The position numbers were made by a program, and so were the translations under genes. Shown one piece after another: positions 15,825-53,737 of a stretch of 64,000 nucleotides of DNA (its first letter is position 1; every line of letters starts with the position of its first letter). This stretch comes from Sporosarcina oncorhynchi (lineage in GTDB: Bacteria; Bacillota; Bacilli; Bacillales_A; Planococcaceae), in the NCBI RefSeq assembly GCF_033304615.1, contig NZ_CP129118.1, positions 244,001 through 308,000 of the forward strand. The letters run 5' to 3'. The notes under the pieces are model-generated. The model was not told where the DNA came from. It saw nothing but the letters and a program-made list of their open reading frames with translations, and ran no database searches.

Positions 15825-16463
15825 CATGCCCGTGGAAAACGTGTGTTAGCGGTCAAATAGCGGCGTTGTATATGCCCGTGCTAGCGGAAAACGTTCGCCC
15901 GCGGTCAAATAGGAGCGCTGTATATGCCCGTTCGAGCGGAAACCGGTCGCCCGCGGTCAATTAGGAGCGCTGTATATGCCCGTTCGAGCGGGAAACGGTC
16001 GCCCGCGGTCAAATAGCGGCGCTGTATATGCCCGTTCGAGCGGAAACCGTTCGCCCACGGTCAAATAGGAGCGCTGTAAATGCCCGTTCGAGCGGAAATC
16101 GATCGCCCGCGGTCAATTAGGAACGCTGTATATGCCCGTTCGAGCGGAAAACGTTCGCCCACGGTCAAATAGGAGCGCTGTAAATGCCCGTTCGAGCGGA
16201 AAACGTTCGCCCGCGGTCAAATAGCGGCGCTGTATATGCCCGTTGAAGCGGAAACCGTTCGCCCGCGGTCAAATAGGAGCGCTGTAAATGCCCGTTCGAG
16301 CGAAAAACGTTCGCCCGCGGTCAAATAAGAACGCTGTATATGCCCGTTCGAGCGAAAAACGGTCGCCCACGGTCAAATAGGAGCGCTGTAAATGCCCGTT
16401 CGAGCGGAAATCGATCGCCCGCGGTCAAATAGGAACGCTGTAAATGCCCGTTCGAGCGGGAAA
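15825..16463 (+). repeat. Tandem array of a 52-bp unit (12 copies plus a partial)
   Basis: Units begin (at the trinucleotide ATG of ATGCCCGTT) near 15871, 15923, 15975, 16027, 16079, 16131, 16183, 16235, 16287, 16339, 16391 and 16443, an exact 52-bp period; a degenerate 46-bp unit precedes at 15825. Each unit contains CGAGCGGAAA, then a variable six-base stretch, TCGCCCGCGG, TCAAATAGG and AGCGCTGTA. The six-base stretch is AACGTT, ACCGGT or ATCGAT in seven of eleven complete units, so it is often palindromic. There are no unique spacers and 52 is not a multiple of three, so neither CRISPR nor coding. It lies after a terminator and is intergenic. Confidence 0.95.
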
Positions 16464-16520
16464 CTAATGCCTCGCTAGTTTAATTCCTTGAAAATGAATA
16501 ATTTTCGGCAGAAAAACGCG

Positions 16521-16639
16521 AGTCGGTGGTAAACGGTCGAGAGTCGGTGGTAAAGTCGCCCGAGTCGGTGGTAAAGTACAGAAAGTCGGTGGTAAAGTAC
16601 AGAAAGTCGGTGGTAAACGCCTCCGAGTCGGTGGTAACC
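16521..16639 (+). repeat. 21-bp repeat array a (core AGTCGGTGGTAAA, 6 units)
   Basis: Cores start at 16521, 16542, 16563, 16584, 16605 and 16626, exactly 21 bp apart. The 8-bp parts between cores differ (CGGTCGAG, GTCGCCCG, GTACAGAA twice, CGCCTCCG). The last unit ends GTGGTAACCAC, a palindrome. It sits between the 52-bp array and the DUF4139 gene. Confidence 0.95.
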
Positions 16640-16786
16640 ACATTCGCCTGCTGCCAATCGACGCCAAACACAAAAAAAATCGCATGCCCACTAGCTTTAT
16701 TTTCAAAACAAGAGGGAATAGCGTATATACATACCTTAAATGGAGAGCGTAGAAGTAGCCGTTAAACTATTGAGGAGGTTTACGCC

Positions 16787-23380: not shown

Positions 23381-23500
23381 GAGCGGTGATGGAAAGTGAT
23401 TAAGCCGTGATAAATGCCATCTAAGCGGTGATAAAACCGGCTCGAGCGGTGATAGACAGCCCATAAGCAGTGATAGATCCACATCAAGCGGTGATAGCCC
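23381..23500 (+). repeat. 21-bp repeat array b (core AAGCGGTGATAGA, 6 units)
   Basis: Cores start at 23381, 23402, 23423, 23444, 23465 and 23486, exactly 21 bp apart. Units 2 and 5 carry single changes (AAGCCGTGATAA, AAGCAGTGATAG). It lies between convergent genes. The rest of the 320-base gap holds nothing else I recognise. Confidence 0.93.
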
Positions 23501-23545
23501 AATTTAACGTATGAATCTGGTCGGATAAACTACCATTATCGAATC

Positions 23546-26298: not shown

Positions 26299-26332
26299 GA
26301 CGTGAAAGCTTGTGAAAACCCATAATATGGGC

Positions 26333-26574
26333 AAGTGGTGATAGATTCGTTATGAGCGGTGATAGAAGGCCTATCAGCGGTGATAAAATACATTTAAGCG
26401 GTGATAGCCGATGGATCAGCGGTGATAGACTTTTTCAGGTCGATGAATCTTGGCGAGTCGGTGATAAAGTGTCAAGAAGCGGTGATAACAGGCCGAGAGT
26501 CGGTGATAAACTCACCCAAGTCGGTGATAACCTCGCCTAAGTCGGTGATAACACAGCAAGAGTCGGTGATAAAC
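26333..26574 (+). repeat. 21-bp repeat array c, grading between both core types (12 units)
   Basis: Cores start at 26333, 26354, 26375, 26396, 26417, then an 18-bp degenerate unit at 26438, then 26456, 26477, 26498, 26519, 26540 and 26561. The first five are the GCGGTGATAGA type; from 26456 most are the hybrid AGTCGGTGATAA. The period is 21 bp throughout except the one short unit. It lies between convergent genes. Confidence 0.93.
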
Positions 26575-26611
26575 CGTTTTCAAAAGAGTGTACTCCAGCT
26601 GTGCTTTACTT

Positions 26612-37662: not shown

Positions 37663-37678
37663 GTTGTGGAAATTGACG

Positions 37679-37797
37679 AGTCGGTGGTAAAACTGTCCGA
37701 GTCGGTGGTAAAGTGTCGAAAGTCGGTGGTAAAGTGCTGAAAGTCGGTGGTAACCGCCAGAGAGTCGGTGGTAAACTCCTCCGAGTCGGTGGTAACG
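37679..37797 (+). repeat. 21-bp repeat array d (core AGTCGGTGGTAAA, 6 units)
   Basis: Cores start at 37679, 37700, 37721, 37742, 37763 and 37784, exactly 21 bp apart. The left flank GAAATTGACG is the same as at array e2. It lies between convergent genes. Confidence 0.95.
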
Positions 37798-37881
37798 CGA
37801 TTCGCCTTGGATCCTCGCCCGGTAGAGTGGTAATAACCTTCAGCATGGCAATCGCACCATCCCAATACGTTCACCTACTAC

Positions 37882-40670: not shown

Positions 40671-41020
40671 GTAAATTAGTGTAACATAGATTCCATTGAA
40701 TTAAAATTACATAAATTGTAAATAGGCGCATTTAACAGGCGGACAACAGCCATAAAATTGGAAGAAGAAAACCCCTATAAAACGCTTGCTCTCAGTAGTT
40801 GACGAACAGTTCGGAGTTCGGAATAAACGGATGCTAAAATAATCGATAAATTTATTTTATTTTATGTGAAATTAAAGATTTTGGATGTAGAATGGGGATT
40901 TATCTCATTGGGAAGAAATCGATATTTTGTTGAAAATGTTCTTGAGTCGACTAGAAAAATGAGAATGTCTATAAAACTTTTCATTGATTTATTTTGATGG
41001 GAATATGGATGTAATTGGGT

Positions 41021-41118
41021 TAGTGGTGATAGAGCGACGGTGAGCGGTGATTAAGAGCTTTCAAGCGGTGATAGAGTGTGCGGAAGCGGTGATAGACTTT
41101 GAAGAAGCGGTGATAACA
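41021..41118 (+). repeat. 21-bp repeat array e1 (GCGGTGATAGA type, 5 units)
   Basis: Cores start at 41021, 41042, 41063, 41084 and 41105, exactly 21 bp apart. This is the first of two arrays in a divergent intergenic region (osmoprotectant ATPase on the minus strand, bceR on the plus strand). From 40671 to 41020 the region is AT-rich and I recognise nothing else in it. Confidence 0.93.
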
Positions 41119-41184
41119 GGATCCGGGTATCACTTTGGCGCAGACCGATTTTACTATTCCAGTTGCCAGGTGGCGAAATTGACG

Positions 41185-41325
41185 AGTCGGTGGTAATTCG
41201 CTTCAAGTCGGTGGTAAAGTCGTGCGAGTCGGTGGTAAGTCGCTTCAAGTCGGTGGTAAAGTCGTGCGAGTCGGTGGTAAATCGCTTCAAGTCGGTGGTA
41301 AAGTCCCCCGAGACGGTGGTAACCC
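41185..41325 (+). repeat. 21-bp repeat array e2 (AGTCGGTGGTAAA type, 7 units)
   Basis: Cores start at 41185, 41206, 41227, 41248, 41269, 41290 and 41311, exactly 21 bp apart. Variable parts alternate between TTCGCTTCA-like and GTCGTGCG-like, so pairs of units were copied together. The array ends 95 bases before the bceR start. Confidence 0.95.
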
Positions 41326-41419
41326 CCCTCCTCTTCTATAAATGCCATTATTCCACCTTCACAGTCGAAACTTGCATGGATTTACACGTATAATGCTATT
41401 TAGAAGGGATGTGCATCGG

Positions 41420-45953: not shown

Positions 45954-45981
45954 ACGGTGAAATGAAGTGCGGGAATGTGCG

Positions 45982-46100
45982 AGTAGGTGGTAAAGTCGGT
46001 AAAGGCGGTGGTAATCACCTGCGAGTCGGTGGTAAAGTCAGCCAAGTCGGTGGTAAATCGGTCAAAGTCGGTGGTAAAGTCGTCCGAGGCGGTGGTAAGC
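45982..46100 (+). repeat. 21-bp repeat array f (AGTCGGTGGTAAA type, 6 units)
   Basis: Cores start at 45982, 46003, 46024, 46045, 46066 and 46087, exactly 21 bp apart. It begins 29 bases after bceB, and the first plausible terminator is at 46255, so it is probably transcribed in the bceAB 3' UTR. Confidence 0.95.
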
Positions 46101-46254
46101 AAAGTAGCAGTGCTATCTCTGTGTTATCCTGCTAAAAGTGCTTGAACACTGTTTTGCACAGCAGCTCACTAGGAAAGAATCCTATCTTAATACGAATTCC
46201 ATTCCGGATTTAAAGGGGACTGAGTGTTGGGGAGAAGAAAAATAATAGCAGTAT

Positions 46255-46481: not shown

Positions 46482-48581
46482 TTGAAAAAACAAAGAAGCA
46501 TAGCCTGGAAGCTGTCCGGGCTTATAATCGGACTATTTCTCGTACTGTTTATTGCCTATACAGTCATTACGAACTCGATTCTATACGATAAAAGCGTGAC
46601 GGACGGGGAAGAGTATGCGATCGAGAACACGGAATTGAATGCCACGGTGCTTAGTGAACGGTTTAATAAGACAAATGAGATGTTGCGCACGACAAAACAT
46701 ATAGTGGAAACGTTGCAGGCACAAGGAAATTTGACGACAGATGAAATGATAGCAATCATTGAAAATAATTTGAAGAAAAATGAAGATGCTACCGGAATGG
46801 CTGCAATCTTCGAAAAAGGATCTATTCCGCTCACCCGGACAGATAGTAAGCTCATCGATTCATCGAAAAGATTCATTCCGTATCTTTATAAAGACGGATC
46901 GGATGTTGTAGTTGAAGGGTTGAGTGGGTATGAAGTTGCAGGTGAAGGGGATTGGTATTTAACTCCGAAAAGTGAGAAACGAGCAGTTCTGACAGAACCA
47001 TATACGTATAATGCAGGTGGGCAGTCGGTCTTAATGACGACGATTTCCGTTCCGCTCGTTACAGGGTCTGGCCAATTTTTCGGTGTCTTGACGACAGACA
47101 TTTCAATTGATTTCCTGAATGACCTCGTCACGACAATTAGCCCGGATGGTGGTTACGCGTCCGTCATTACAAATGGCGGGAATCTAACAGCGAATAGTTT
47201 GAAGGAAGAGATGAACGGCACAGATATGCGAAATTCAATCGATTGGGACAGCATGAAGTCACAGCTCGACCAGGGCAATGTCGGTACATTGTACGTCGAC
47301 TCCAAAAGCCTTGGTGAGCAGGCGTTCAATACATTCGCACCAATCAAGTTGGATACTATCGATGAAGTATGGAGTGTCCAAACGGTTCAGCCTAAATCGG
47401 AAATACTGTCGACATTTAATACACTACTATGGGTAACGATTATTGCAGCGGTCATCATGACAGTCGTCATGTCGGCAGCGACAGCAGTCTTTATCTTTAG
47501 ACTAATGAAACCCTTATCCTACTTGCAACGTTCAATCGAGCAGGCAGCAAAAGGGGATATGACAAGCTTAATTGATGAAAGACATATTAAAAATGATGAA
47601 ATCGGCGCAGTGTCTATTGCATATAATAATATGCTCCGCCAAACGAACGAGGCTATGAATGAAGTGCGTGCCTCTTCTACTGAATTGAATGACTCATCGA
47701 CACATGTGCATCAAGCGTTTGAAGAAATTGTAGCATCTAGCGAAGAAGTGTCACTTGCAACAAACGAAATTGCCCAAGGTGCATCTAAGCAATCCGAAGA
47801 TACGGAGGAAACAAGCAACAGCATCGCCGTACTGGCCGAACAGATTAACGCGTTATCCAGTCTAGCTGCCAGTATGGATAGATTGTCTGTTCAAACTGTT
47901 GAATCGACGGAAAAGGGAATGTCGGAAGTGCGGAATTTACGTGACCATAATGTAACTGCCAATGAAATGAATACGAAAGTTCAAGAACAGATGGATGCGT
48001 TGTCGACGAAAATCGAAGCGATCAATCAAGTAATTACATCCATTCAGGACATCACAGCGCAGACGAATCTGCTCGCGTTGAATGCGAGTATTGAAGCAGC
48101 GCGTGCAGGTGAACACGGCAAAGGCTTCGCAGTCGTTGCGGATGAAGTGCGTAAACTAGCGGAGCAATCAAGAGTGGAGACGGAAGTTATTCAAAAAACA
48201 GTTCATGAAATCATTGAAGAATCGAAACAGACCGTTGCTGTCGTCGAATCCAATGTGCAGTTGATGGAAGGGCAAAACGAATCTGTCACAGGTACGGAAT
48301 CTTCATTCATCCAAAATGTCGAGTTGACCGAGCAGATGAGCCAATCTATCAAAGAACTCACTGCTGAGCTTGCGGAAATGCTCACACACAAAGACCAAGT
48401 GATCGTATCCATCCAGAGCGTATCGGCCGTCTCTGAAGAAACCGCCGCTTCTGCAGAACAAGTGAGCGCGTCTTCAGTCGCTCAACAAAACGAATTGGAA
48501 CGCGTCGCGGATTCCACGACGCGTATGAAGAATATTGCCGGCGAATTGCAAAGCGTTGTAGAGCGTTTTAAATTGATTTAA
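46482..48581 (+). CDS. Membrane methyl-accepting chemotaxis protein with dCACHE sensor
   Basis: The 699-residue receptor has an N-terminal helix (about 9-31), an outside dCACHE-type domain (about 35-310: [42 protein letters not shown]), a second membrane helix (about 316-340), a HAMP domain and a signalling tip ([38 protein letters not shown] near 528-566). It starts at TTG 46482 behind AGGAGG. Ligand unknown. Its transcript appears to run through the repeat array that follows, up to the terminator at 49561. Confidence 0.92.
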
Positions 48582-48609: not shown

Positions 48610-49528
48610 CGTATCGAAACGTAACCCGGCCGCAACGAAACGTAGACGGCTCGTATCGAAACGTAACCCGGTCGCAACGAAACGTAGACGGCTCGTATCG
48701 AAACGTAACCCGGTCGTATCGAAAAGTAGCTACCGTATCGAAACGTAACCCGGTCGCAATGAAACGTAGACGGTTCGTATCGAAACGTAACTCGGTCGTA
48801 TCGAAAAGTAGCTGCCGTATCGAAACGTAACCCGGTCGCAACGAAACGTAGACGGCTCGTATCGAAACGTAACTCGGCCGTATCGAAAAGTAGCTGCCGT
48901 ATCGAAACATAACCCGGTCGCAACGAAACGTAGACGGTTCGTATCGAAACGTAACCCGGTCGTATCGAAAAGTAGCTGCCGTATCGAAGCGTAACCCGGT
49001 CGCAACGAAATGTAGACGTCTCGTATCGAAACGTAACTCGGTCGTATCGAAAAGTAGCTGCCGTATCGAAACGTAACCCGGTCGCAACGAAACGTATACG
49101 GTTCGTATCGAAACGTAACCCGGTCGCAACGAAACGTAGACGGCTCGTATCGAAACGTAACTCGGTCGTATCGAAAAGTAGCTGCCGTATCGAAACGTAA
49201 CCCGGTCGCAACGAAACGTAGACGGCTCGTATCGAAACGTAACTCGGTCGTATCGAAAAGTAGCTGCCGTATCGAAACGTAACTCGGCCGCAACGAAACG
49301 TAGACGGTTCGTATCGAAACGTAACCCGGTCGTATCGAAAAGTAGCTGCCGTATCGAAACGTAACCCGGTCGCAACGAAACGTAACTCGGCCGTATCGAA
49401 AAGTAGCTGCCGTATCGAAACGTAACCCGGTCGCAACGAAACGTAGACGGCTCGTATCGAAACGTAACTCGGTCGTATCGAATAGTAGCTGCCGTATCGA
49501 AACGTAACTCGGCCGCAACGAAACGTAA
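48610..49528 (+). repeat. Large tandem array with an 82-bp higher-order unit (21+21+21+19 bp subunits)
   Basis: About 44 subunits share a core like ATCGAAACGTA. Three types occur: A (21 bp, TATCGAAACGTAACCCGG), B (21 bp, CAACGAAACGTAGACGG) and C (19 bp, TATCGAAAAGTAGCTGC). They are mostly ordered A-B-A-C. C units start at 48715, 48797, 48879, 48961, 49043, 49167, 49249, 49331, 49392 and 49474, mostly 82 bp apart. It fills the gap between the chemoreceptor and argS genes. All three minus-strand frames are open through it because the unit has no stop on that strand. Confidence 0.95.
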
Positions 49529-49560
49529 CACCACCATCCCGTCATGCAATCCCAAAATAG

Positions 49561-49595
49561 ATCGTCCCGCCGATTATGGAGGGACGATTTTTTTA
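49561..49595 (+). terminator. Terminator after the 82-bp array
   Basis: ATCGTCCC / GGGACGAT stem of 8 bp with 12-base loop and seven T. It is the first plus-strand terminator after the chemoreceptor gene. Confidence 0.8.
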
Positions 49596-51257
49596 CATTT
49601 CTTTAGGCGCCTTCATGCCGAGTAAACGCATGGATTCTGTTAATACAATGGAAACAGACTGAATGAGTGCTACACGGTAAGGAAGATTCACATGATCCGT
49701 CAGCACTTTGATATTCCCATAAAAAGAATTGAATGCTTGCGCAAGGTCAATAGCATATTTCGCGATGATTGAGGGGTCTAAGTCATCTGTAGCGCGTTTG
49801 ACTGCGTTCGGGAACTGTTCCAGCAACTTAATGGTTTCCCATTCATAGTCATTCACTTCATCGATTTCTATGGGACCGATTGAACCTGATTTACGTAAGA
49901 CGGAATGAGCTCGGGCATTCGTATACTGAATATAAGGCCCCGTTTCACCTTCCACTTGCAGCATCGTCTCTAAATTGAATTCGATATCATGCTTGCGGTG
50001 TTGTTTGAGGTCGCTGAATAAAATTGCACCGACACCGACTGCTTCCGCTACTTCTTTTTGGTTGGCGAGCGTTGGATTCTTTTCTGCAATATTCCGTTGT
50101 GCAAGTTCAATCGCTTCTGTTAGCACTTGCTCAAGCAAGACAATCTTTCCTTTACGCGTCGACATCTTCTTGCCACCTTGCAAAATCAGTCCGAACGGCA
50201 CATGCTGCATATCATCGGACCATGTATGGCCCATCTTTCTAAGCACTTGCTTCACTTGTGTGAAATGAAGGCTTTGTTCATTCCCAACGACATAAATCGA
50301 TTTCACAAAGTCATACGTGTTTTTACGGTCCAACGCGGCAGTCAAATCGCGCGTCGCATATAATGTAGCCCCATCGGATTTTCTAATGAGGCAAGGAGGG
50401 ATGTTCTCGCCTAAATCGACGACTTGTGCCCCATCCGATTCTTCAAGCAGTCCTTTGTCCATCAGCTCTTGCACGATAGGCATCATCTTGTCGTTGTAGT
50501 ATGCCTCGCCGTTATACGAATCGAACTCCACACCAAGCAAGTCGTAAATCCGTTGAAACTCCTTCAACGACTCGGTCTTAAACCATGTCCATAGGTTCAG
50601 CGCATCTGCGTCGCCATCTTCGAGTGCCTTGAATGCAGCGCGACCTTTGTCGTTTAATGAAGGATCCTGTTCGGCCTCATCATGGAAACGAATATAAAGC
50701 TTCAATAACGTCTCAATAGGCGCATGGCGGACGTCCTGTTCATTCCCCCACAAGCGATAAGCAGTGAGCAACTTTCCAAACTGCGTGCCCCAGTCACCGA
50801 TGTAATTAATTTTCACAGGTTTAAAACCGCTTTTCTCGAGCAATAAAGCAATCGAATTACCGATAACCGTGGAGCGCAGATGTCCCATAGAAAAAGGCTT
50901 TGCAATATTGGGCGATGATAAGTCAATTGTCACAACACCATCATTGCCTTCATTCGAAGATCCGTACGAATTACCCTGTTCAATAATCGTACGTAGTATG
51001 TCACTTGAAATAGCTGTTCGATTCAAGAAGATGTTGACATAACCATTGACGGCTTCCGCTTTCAGGATGGATGGATGTGCTACAGAAGCGGCGATATCTT
51101 CAGCGATGATCGCAGGAGATTTCCGGAGAATCTTTGCAAATTGAAAACAAGGCATTGCGAAATCACCTAAATGCGCATATACCGGGCGCTCCAATGTGTG
51201 CGCCTCGAGTTGTATCGGACTGGCGGCTTGCAATGCTTGCAGAATACCATTTTTCAT
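49593..51257 (-). CDS. argS: Arginyl-tRNA synthetase
   Basis: The 554-residue class I synthetase has the HIGH-type motif in SSPNIAKPFSMGHLRST (MGHL), IGDWGTQFGKL, the KMSK-like segment KKMSTRKGKIVLLE, a C-terminal anticodon-binding domain (GPYIQYTNARAHSVLRK) and the ending LGMKAPKEM. It charges tRNA-Arg. I use ATG 51257, for which AAAGGGG is correctly spaced; an ATG two codons earlier is too close. A T-box in the leader has an Arg specifier codon. Confidence 0.95.
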   Translation of the reverse strand: MKNGILQALQAASPIQLEAHTLERPVYAHLGDFAMPCFQFAKILRKSPAIIAEDIAASVAHPSILKAEAVNGYVNIFLNRTAISSDILRTIIEQGNSYGSSNEGNDGVVTIDLSSPNIAKPFSMGHLRSTVIGNSIALLLEKSGFKPVKINYIGDWGTQFGKLLTAYRLWGNEQDVRHAPIETLLKLYIRFHDEAEQDPSLNDKGRAAFKALEDGDADALNLWTWFKTESLKEFQRIYDLLGVEFDSYNGEAYYNDKMMPIVQELMDKGLLEESDGAQVVDLGENIPPCLIRKSDGATLYATRDLTAALDRKNTYDFVKSIYVVGNEQSLHFTQVKQVLRKMGHTWSDDMQHVPFGLILQGGKKMSTRKGKIVLLEQVLTEAIELAQRNIAEKNPTLANQKEVAEAVGVGAILFSDLKQHRKHDIEFNLETMLQVEGETGPYIQYTNARAHSVLRKSGSIGPIEIDEVNDYEWETIKLLEQFPNAVKRATDDLDPSIIAKYAIDLAQAFNSFYGNIKVLTDHVNLPYRVALIQSVSIVLTESMRLLGMKAPKEM

Positions 51258-51279
51258 TTCCATAACCCCTTTTTTGGCA

Positions 51280-51540
51280 AAATAAAAAGCCTTCATCTCG
51301 TATAATGAGACGAAAGCTTGTTCCGCGGTACCACTCAAATTGCCCAGCATCTATGGCGGGCCCCTTTCTCCTAACGGCGAGACACCGGCTTCTCCTACTG
51401 AATTCAGAAAAGCATCTTCGAAGTGCGTTTCACAATCTTCATTCACCAGGCTTCCACCACCCCCGGCTCGCTTCGGAAATAAAAGACCATTACTCTCTTC
51501 GTCATTGATATTGTAGTTGAATGTACCAAAACGTGGAAGG
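51280..51540 (-). promoter_or_regulatory. T-box riboswitch of argS
   Basis: On the minus strand the leader has the stem I elements (GAAGAGAGTAATGG; AGCGAGCCGGGGGTGG), the specifier region GTGAAACGCACTTC with CGC (Arg), the T-box sequence AGTGGTACCGCGG, and a terminator (AGCTTTCGTCTC pairing with GAGATGAAGGCT, then TTTTTA). Uncharged tRNA-Arg should favour antitermination and argS expression. Confidence 0.92.
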
Positions 51541-51630
51541 CGTGTCAATAGGCGAAGAAGGGAAGAGTTTGTAACTTTGACTCAAATCATCCGTCTAACT
51601 TGATAGAGAGCTTGGATGAGGAGGATGAAA

Positions 51631-52803
51631 ATGAAACGAACATTACTCGCAACTGCTTTAGGCGTTGCATTAATTGTAAGTGGATGTGGAACAGGAGCAG
51701 GAGGAACGACTGGAACAGATGTGGGCGAAGAGGATGGATGGAAGACGATTAAGACGATTAGTGGCCGCGAAATTATAGCTGAACTCAAACAGACAGTGAA
51801 AGAGTCCCCTGAACGAGAGAAGCTGGCGGCTGAACAAGTGGATAGCGAGGATTATAAGGGGGGATTATTCGGAGATCCGTCGCCTGAACTGGCGGAAGAT
51901 ATGGCGGTGCAAGCCATTGAAGGACCTATCGCGCTTGAAGCACTTGGCAAAGTATACGGGGAGAATGGTTTTAGTGAAGAAGGTGTGATTTTCTTTGAAA
52001 ACCAGCGGAATGGAGCAGAACAGTCAGGTATTTGGTTTGGTGTGAAAAACCCGGACGAACGTCTTAACGAATTGCTTGCAGAGCTTCAACCGAAAGTGGA
52101 TGTAGGAGAAATCCTCGCCGCACCAATCTATATTTTCCGCAGCGCGCACACGGAAAAAGAGCTGAATGACATCCAAGACGAAGTGGCAGTGGCGTTGAAA
52201 GGAATGCACGCGAAGCGCGGATCCTATTCACTTAGCGTTGATGTGAAATCAGGCGAAATCGAACTGAATCATGATTTTCTAAAGGCTGAACAGCAAAAAG
52301 AATTAGAAGAGAAGTTCCCGGACTACACATTCCACTTTGAACAGGATGGAAGATTAGTAGCAGAACCAGGCGACTCTAGCATCATTCATCCGGAAAATAC
52401 ATTTACGGATATACCAGTGAATGATGGTGGCTTCATCTTGTCGGTAGAGGCAGGGAGGATTTTTGTAGCTGGCGGCAATGAAAGCGCAATTTATTATTCG
52501 TTCGAAGAAGCAGAAAAGCTGAAAGTCGGGCAACGTGTGAAAGTCGAGGCGTCGGGGATGATTATGGAATCGTACCCAGGGCAGGGGACTGCGAAATACG
52601 TGGAAATTCTACCCGATTACAAACCTGTCGGTGCTGAACTATCCGAATCGCAGGCTTTCGTGAAAGCAATGGAAAAGTTTACAGCAGAATCGTCTGGCGA
52701 AATGGATTTCATGGTCGTTAAAGAGGTCTCTTTTGATGAGAAAGAAGTGAAATGGATTTTCACGCTTGATGAAGATAGGAAAGTGGAAATTGAGGATAAA
52801 TGA
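51631..52803 (+). CDS. DUF3221-containing lipoprotein
   Basis: The 390-residue lipoprotein has a signal peptide and lipobox (LIVSGCG, Cys about 19). An N-terminal domain of unknown family follows. The region from about residue 245 (NDGGFILSVEAGRIFVAG, FEEAEKLKVGQRVKVEASG) matches the DUF3221 type of Bacillales lipoproteins (YobA-like). It should sit on the outer face of the membrane. ATG 51631 has GAGGAGG upstream; an ATG five codons earlier lies in that site. Role unknown. Confidence 0.75.
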   Translation: MKRTLLATALGVALIVSGCGTGAGGTTGTDVGEEDGWKTIKTISGREIIAELKQTVKESPEREKLAAEQVDSEDYKGGLFGDPSPELAEDMAVQAIEGPIALEALGKVYGENGFSEEGVIFFENQRNGAEQSGIWFGVKNPDERLNELLAELQPKVDVGEILAAPIYIFRSAHTEKELNDIQDEVAVALKGMHAKRGSYSLSVDVKSGEIELNHDFLKAEQQKELEEKFPDYTFHFEQDGRLVAEPGDSSIIHPENTFTDIPVNDGGFILSVEAGRIFVAGGNESAIYYSFEEAEKLKVGQRVKVEASGMIMESYPGQGTAKYVEILPDYKPVGAELSESQAFVKAMEKFTAESSGEMDFMVVKEVSFDEKEVKWIFTLDEDRKVEIEDK

Positions 52804-52821: not shown

Positions 52822-52857
52822 GCAACCGCCCTTGACTATGGGGCGGTTGTTTTTTGA
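52822..52857 (+). terminator. Terminator of the lipoprotein gene
   Basis: CAACCGCCC pairs with GGGCGGTTG, then TTTTTT. Part of it is duplicated at 52995-53020. Confidence 0.8.
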
Positions 52858-52882
52858 GGTTAATATCTCTTAATAATTGGGC

Positions 52883-52978
52883 GAGCGGTGATAGGATGTG
52901 TTCAAGCGGTGATAAAGATGCATAAGCGGTGATAAAGGGTGCAAAAGCGGTGATAACTCTCCGTAAGGCGGTGATAGG
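52883..52978 (+). repeat. 21-bp repeat array g (GCGGTGATAGA type, 5 units)
   Basis: Cores start at 52883, 52904, 52924, 52945 and 52966; one interval is 20 bp, the rest 21. Preceded by the end of the lipoprotein terminator. Confidence 0.9.
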
Positions 52979-52994
52979 ATATAGGACAACTGCA

Positions 52995-53059
52995 CTTGAC
53001 TATGGGGCGGTTGTTTTTAAGGTTAATGTCTCCTAATAATTGGGCGAGCGGTGATAGAC
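52995..53059 (+). repeat. Duplicated segment: terminator half plus array start
   Basis: CTTGACTATGGGGCGGTTG, a GGTTAAT-TCT-TAATAATTGG stretch and GCGAGCGGTGATAG occur at 52831-52895 and again here, with a few changes. The second copy leads into array h1. Confidence 0.85.
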
Positions 53060-53142
53060 TGACGTTGAGCGGTGATAGAATGTGTTTAAGCGGTGATAGA
53101 GGGTGCACGAGCGGTGATAGAACTTGTTCAAGCGGTGATGGA
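53046..53142 (+). repeat. 21-bp repeat array h1 (GCGGTGATAGA type, 5 units)
   Basis: Cores start at 53046, 53067, 53088, 53109 and 53130, exactly 21 bp apart. Confidence 0.95.
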
Positions 53143-53166
53143 AAAGGACGGCCGTGAAAAATGGCG

Positions 53167-53285
53167 AGTCGGTGGTAATTCCACTAGAGTCGGTGGTAAA
53201 GTCGTCAAAGTCGGTGGTAAACACACCTGAATCGGTGGTAATCCCGCCAGAGTCAGTGGTAATCTCACAAAAGTCGGTGGTAACC
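53167..53285 (+). repeat. 21-bp repeat array h2 (AGTCGGTGGTAAA type, 6 units)
   Basis: Cores start at 53167, 53188, 53209, 53230, 53251 and 53272, exactly 21 bp apart. The last unit ends GGTGGTAACCACC, a perfect palindrome. From 53286 to about 53735 I recognise only a degenerate unit (GGATTGGTGATAAAAT, 53385-53400). Confidence 0.95.
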
Positions 53286-53737
53286 ACCATAGCGCGCCAC
53301 TTTCTGGTGGGTTCTGCAAAAACTGAGGTTAGATTACTGTTTATTCACATTCTAGATCGCCAATCAAACAGTTTTTCATTTTGTCGGATTGGTGATAAAA
53401 TGATTCAGGTTGGCAAGGGTGATGCGGGAAAATTTCTTTCCCTATGCAATTAATATTTATTTTTCGACATGTCTCTTATTATTTCATGCATATTCGATAA
53501 AATGTATAGATCTGGAACAATCTTAACTATAAATGCACAATTCCTACTCATCCCCGAATGCTGTCGGGACTCCTCCAATTACCTCTTTGATTTTTATATT
53601 AATCATCCTTCTCAAAAGACCCATCACTACTTTGAAAGTTTGAAAATCATTAAAAACTTTCTACCTATTTACGATTAAGACACAACATGTTAGGGTAGTA
53701 AAAGAGAAAGAGACACTATATATAGTATTTTCGATGA

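Follow-up and report, generated by a model that had tools for sequence, protein, structure and literature searches.

Iteron arrays and plasmid centromeres are built of direct repeats that share a conserved core, recur about every two helical turns, and are bound cooperatively; they occupy one or a few loci per replicon. The ram sites of the chromosome-binding protein RacA are short inverted-repeat sites, and the STRRs of cyanobacteria are tandem repeats dispersed among intergenic spacers. In Bacillus, centromere-like sites on the chromosome, among them the ram sites of RacA, have been described (PMC6593407), and cyanobacteria also carry LTRRs, another class of dispersed intergenic tandem repeats (PMC2408588). 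REPs are imperfect palindromes that alternate in orientation within BIMEs and are tied to RAYT genes, which are themselves flanked by REPs (PMC2817692).

Here, we analyze an array of short direct repeats that lies between two convergent genes in a window of 64,000 nucleotides (positions 244001-308000 of a 3.48-Mb Sporosarcina chromosome), and compare it with related arrays on that chromosome and in other Sporosarcina genomes. No published description of these repeats was found in the literature, of which coverage was incomplete. The focal locus comprises the following features (window coordinates):

46482-48581, plus strand: mcp, a methyl-accepting chemotaxis protein gene, upstream neighbour of the F1 array
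48610-49528, plus strand: the F1 array, with core CGYAWCGAAACGTAR and 45 units spaced 21/21/21/19 bp
49552-49598, strand not assigned: bidirectional intrinsic terminator common to mcp and argS, between the F1 array and argS
49593-51350, minus strand: argS, coding for arginyl-tRNA synthetase (second such gene in the genome) and converging on the F1 array

The argS gene at 49593-51350 is a second copy, with a distant homolog at genome positions 426289-427944, and has a T-box leader at 51303-51514 of the window. Of 68 Sporosarcina genomes, ~30 contain close relatives of this second copy, and this set largely coincides with the array-bearing species.

With the plus strand of F1 arrays defined as the one on which the core reads CGTATCGAAACGTA, a unit-by-unit reading of the focal array gave 45 cores separated by 34 steps of 21 bp and 10 steps of 19 bp. 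TRF reported a period of 82 bp in 9.7 copies at 48610-49405 (91% match) and a higher period of 370 bp across 48610-49527. The subunits A (CGTATCGAAACGTAACCCGGT), B (CGCAACGAAACGTAGACGGCT), and C (CGTATCGAAAAGTAGCTGC, 19 bp) follow one another as A-B-A-C, and the 82-bp higher-order structure (21/21/21/19) proposed in an earlier note on this DNA is thus borne out by both TRF and base-by-base reading. The same reading recovered the A-B insertion that the note had placed near 49090-49140 and the deletion it had claimed (a unit lost near 49331-49412), and it added one further irregularity, an additional A-B pair at the array start. The description of the array as a third repeat sequence on a 21-bp basis was right in substance, as another 21-bp family, F2, occurs in two sub-types at no fewer than seven positions of the window.

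The focal array belongs to a set of dozens of related arrays, dispersed through the intergenic spacers of chromosomes from a single Sporosarcina branch. BLASTN of the focal array against its own chromosome returned 25 matches on both strands, and the F1 family there, counted after retrieval of the flanking sequence, comprises 21 arrays with 558 units, all of them between called ORFs. Each unit consists of a ~15-bp core, CGYAWC(GA/AC)AACGTAR, and a variable rest, and the spacing is strict: 21 bp in 412 steps, 19 bp in 114, and 20 bp in none. Exactly three 21-bp steps separate consecutive 19-bp steps in 80 of 100 intervals in this genome and in 36 of 47 in S. quadrami, and each of the four slots of the 82-bp module has its preferred core variants across the F1 arrays of the genome. 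Over the 21 arrays, information reaches about 1-2 bits at positions 1-14 versus 0.2-0.7 at positions 15-21, the core value being raised somewhat since units were picked by their cores, while few slots lack a core.

Of the GTDB r220 genomes, S. quadrami alone matched a spacer-independent F1 pattern, in a search that may leave out records very near the window's own genome, and in a second collection the pattern occurred in two of 68 Sporosarcina genomes (152 matches in the own genome and 112 in S. quadrami, G057). An origin from phages or plasmids was considered and rejected: F1 had no match in viral contigs, phages, or plasmids, and the sole viral match of F2 (L071) spans two units. The species G023, which lacks the main F1 pattern, carries an F1-like variant array, GTATCACAATGTAAC (L045, 4041-4118), and its TATCACAA variant is also found inside some F1 arrays of the own genome (L022 and L033).

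Positions and cores of the F1 arrays are conserved between the two species, whereas spacers have turned over. For 17 arrays of the own genome, an F1 array stands at the orthologous position in S. quadrami, with cores that differ by 0.45 of 14 positions. Spacers of orthologous arrays, on the other hand, show 2.17 mismatches of 7, against 2.47 for other arrays, and the ortholog is the closest spacer match for only four of the 17. Four-fold sites of argS are 50% identical between these species, indicating that unconstrained sequence has largely been turned over. Copy numbers are unequal between orthologous arrays, those of S. quadrami being minimum values because its short-read contigs L054, L058, L062, L067, and L095 terminate within F1 arrays.

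The second family, F2 (core CGGTGRTAA, 21 bp), is more widespread: 27 of the 68 Sporosarcina genomes have matches, against near-zero control counts, and two genomes from another genus of the same family carry it at low copy. About 15 F2 arrays accompany the about 21 F1 arrays on the own chromosome. Within the window, they are distributed as follows:

16520-16645, plus strand: F2 array, 6 units
23422-23505, plus strand: short F2 array, 3 recognised units
26332-26580, plus strand: F2 array, 11 units
37678-37803, plus strand: F2 array, 6 units, between convergent genes and behind a terminator
41020-41330, plus strand: F2 array, 11 units in two blocks
45981-46106, plus strand: F2 array, 6 units, 3' of bceB
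52882-53300, plus strand: compound F2 array, 3' of the gene at 51616-52803

Short steps in F2 are 21 bp in 245 of 252 cases, and over 12 species the information reaches at most 1.9 bits in GGTGATAA versus 0.05-0.3 in the spacer. Just before the array at 16520 lies a separate 52-bp tandem array (15849-16464; 11.8 copies of GCGGTCAAATAGGAGCGCTG...CGAGCGGAAAACGTTCGCCC), whose unit contains CGAGCGG, resembling the core of the F4 family described below. F2 positions are also kept across species: the array behind the gene at 51616-52803 recurs in the same position and orientation in 11 other species, for which protein identity is about 57-63%, mostly as GTGATAAAC-type units, a gap of ~60-80 bp, and TCGGTGRTAA-type units, and in most cases the terminator of the gene precedes the array. 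In the own genome, this terminator and its F2 block are duplicated in tandem with a 164-bp period (52823-53119). A counterpart of the bceB array lies between bceB and argS in G067, G073, G023, and G041; an F1/F2 swap 3' of argS was therefore rejected, as the F2 array of these genomes adjoins bceB just as the one at 45981-46106 does here. F2 arrays are origin-proximal in the own genome, G065, and G073 (median 0.15-0.18 of the ori-ter distance; KS p of 5e-8 to 2e-4), and 35 of 43 are oriented with replication, which may just follow gene direction. An association of all families with the origin was rejected in favor of F2 only.

Two further families are of similar appearance, namely F3 (TTGAGCGCGGRA, 21/20 bp) in 13 and F4 (TACGAGCGGT, 20/21 bp) in four of the 68 Sporosarcina genomes. 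On an ArgS tree, of which several inner forks are open, F2 is widespread, F1 is confined to the own genome and S. quadrami, F4 to one well-supported clade of four, and F3 is found mainly in further relatives. Over half of the 68 genomes matched none of the four patterns. For the own genome, counts of arrays beyond the searched families are possibly incomplete. The clade-specific cores share slots. The gap between mcp and argS is occupied by F1 in the own genome and in S. quadrami and by about ten F3 units, ahead of the shared terminator, in G004, and it contains the terminator alone in G047 and G050; behind rplT, F1 of the own genome corresponds to F3 in G004, and behind a csaB-like gene, F2 corresponds to F3. 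Families can thus share slots, and slots can be empty, which together with the viability of array-free genomes indicates that the arrays are not essential one by one. A repeat of 41 bp that contains TCGCTTGAGCGA inverted repeats lies 3' of argS in G006 (L114, 3222-3304) and is perhaps a relative of F3. A common function of the flanking genes was rejected, as these encode 133 Pfam families, the commonest in three of 64 proteins.

The best reading of these data is that the arrays act at the DNA level as putative protein-binding arrays rather than as an RNA element. On a modest balance of probability, the focal array belongs to a genome-wide set of helically phased, double-stranded DNA binding arrays for a putative protein. 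Each 19-21 bp unit would present one core (about 15 bp in F1 and about 9-10 bp in F2) to a putative sequence-specific DNA-binding protein. Because units stand about two helical turns apart, bound proteins would lie on one face of the DNA, where cooperative binding is possible, and in gene-free spacers, often beyond terminators, the resulting nucleoprotein block would disturb no gene. We infer that the arrays would most likely serve to organise or segregate the chromosome, as the clustering of F2 around the origin suggests, or else to insulate gene ends. This reading draws on helically phased direct repeats (19/20/21-bp spacing) whose cores are conserved in contrast to the spacers, on array positions shared between species, on the frequent placement beyond terminators, on the variable orientation of F1 relative to genes, on RNA folding at the level of shuffles, and on the origin-proximal F2. 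Judged from sequence comparison, cores and spacing that are kept while spacers change are as expected of docking rows for a putative DNA-binding protein. Against it stand the genomes free of any pattern, the slots that are sometimes empty, the location of the focal array ahead of the terminator, and the placement of F1, which unlike F2 is not origin-proximal (KS p = 0.1), although no F1 array lies in the map quarter nearest the terminus. A further proposal, which we hold to be rather doubtful, is that a stable, origin-proximal F2 coexists with a fast-changing second family (F1, F3, or F4, depending on the clade) sharing slots, resembling satellite or centromere turnover, in which the putative protein would change specificity and the arrays would be rebuilt to match.

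Transcription deserves consideration at the focal locus: the stretch from the mcp stop (48581) to the array yielded no terminator, and the sole one in the gap, on the plus strand at 49559-49598, follows the array. The earlier note was right on this point, and the terminator moreover proved bidirectional, also serving the convergent argS. Preceding the terminator, and in mcp orientation, the array may be transcribed, and the proposed 3' UTR is plausible here but is not a property of the F1 family. An RNA element, transcribed as a 3' UTR with the upstream gene and serving to modulate stability, sponge up a protein, or assist termination, is nevertheless very unlikely. Many arrays are located beyond a neighbour's terminator, at a distance of up to about 60 bp, and several sit between two terminators that face the array; F1 has no fixed orientation relative to genes, with eight of 21 arrays between convergent genes and seven of the 11 in co-directional spacers antisense to both neighbours (simple ORF calls). 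Folding of 271 nt of each strand was no better than shuffles (z = +0.32 and +0.36), and Rfam matches in the window were limited to a T-box and a cobalamin riboswitch, with none in the array. The minus strand offers a coding-based explanation, a heptad-repeat protein encoded by its open frames. The claim that all three frames stay open nearly holds, in that one of them has a stop (0, 1, and 0 over 919 bp versus 18.6 ± 3.0 expected from dinucleotide shuffles), and minus frames are nearly stop-free across all F1 arrays. This openness simply follows from the composition of the columns, as 17 antisense-stop trinucleotides were observed versus 23.2 ± 2.5 with spacer columns permuted, a small difference. 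Since each 82-bp module shifts the frame and no Pfam family matched the minus-strand frames, coding is unsupported, and every codon position of the F1 core is conserved alike; such a protein is extremely improbable, and the warning that these frames can mislead gene callers was well founded.

A neutral or selfish satellite, arising through slippage and unequal exchange and occasionally spreading to other spacers with no host function, would survive there because nothing is disrupted. It would fit the unequal copy numbers of orthologous arrays, block duplications such as the inserted A-B pair and the 164-bp one at 52823-53119, the empty slots, and the clade-limited families, and it retains some standing mainly from the dispensability of the arrays in sister clades and from the want of a known protein. 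Drift, however, should affect cores no less than spacers, and gene conversion would carry spacers along with cores, whereas here cores and the 19/21-bp spacing are kept as spacers are turned over, and 17 F1 arrays, as well as one F2 array across 12 species, have stayed in place. We regard a satellite as somewhat unlikely. A REP/BIME-type element, made and moved by a RAYT-like Y1 transposase, would share with the arrays an extragenic location, high copy number, composite tandem structure, and clade-specific sequences, as in REPs (PMC2817692), and the own genome does contain one Y1_Tnp gene. Yet the units are direct repeats at 19-21 bp without palindromes: folding of six two-unit stretches from F1-F4 in single-stranded DNA form gave z of -1.7 to +1.2, and the F1 core is a near-palindrome at most (CGTATC/GAAACG). 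No array lies within 1.5 kb of the Y1_Tnp genes of the own genome, G057, G073, G018, and G053, of which G018 is array-free, and array positions are stable between species. This origin is very improbable indeed.

Taken at the DNA level, ~20 chromosomal sites with long direct-repeat arrays in helical phase, constrained cores, free spacers, and clade motifs that share slots point to an unrecognised DNA-binding system, possibly for organisation or insulation, and the arrays could serve as ready-made bait for fishing out the putative protein. In practical terms, they break short-read contigs, as in S. quadrami, and invite false minus-strand gene calls.

Among known systems, REP/BIME elements resemble the F1-F4 arrays in their proposed protein binding and chromosome-organisation role, and F1 is extragenic and high in copy as they are, but two of their defining features, the palindrome and the repeat-flanked transposase, were not found in the stretches folded and within 1.5 kb of the Y1_Tnp genes, respectively. 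The cyanobacterial LTRRs and STRRs are likewise dispersed intergenic tandem repeats of one bacterial group, with other unit lengths. RacA ram sites are like F2 in being numerous, dispersed, and most concentrated around the origin, and in belonging to a spore-former lineage of the Bacillota, while the Sporosarcina arrays are long, phased, direct-repeat arrays. Iterons and plasmid centromeres have direct repeats, helical phase, and a conserved core in common with the arrays described here, and differ from them in that the own chromosome alone holds about 21 F1 and 15 F2 arrays and the focal array is unmatched in plasmid and phage collections. By analogy, the arrays would work most like iteron or centromere-type arrays, with a putative cognate protein.
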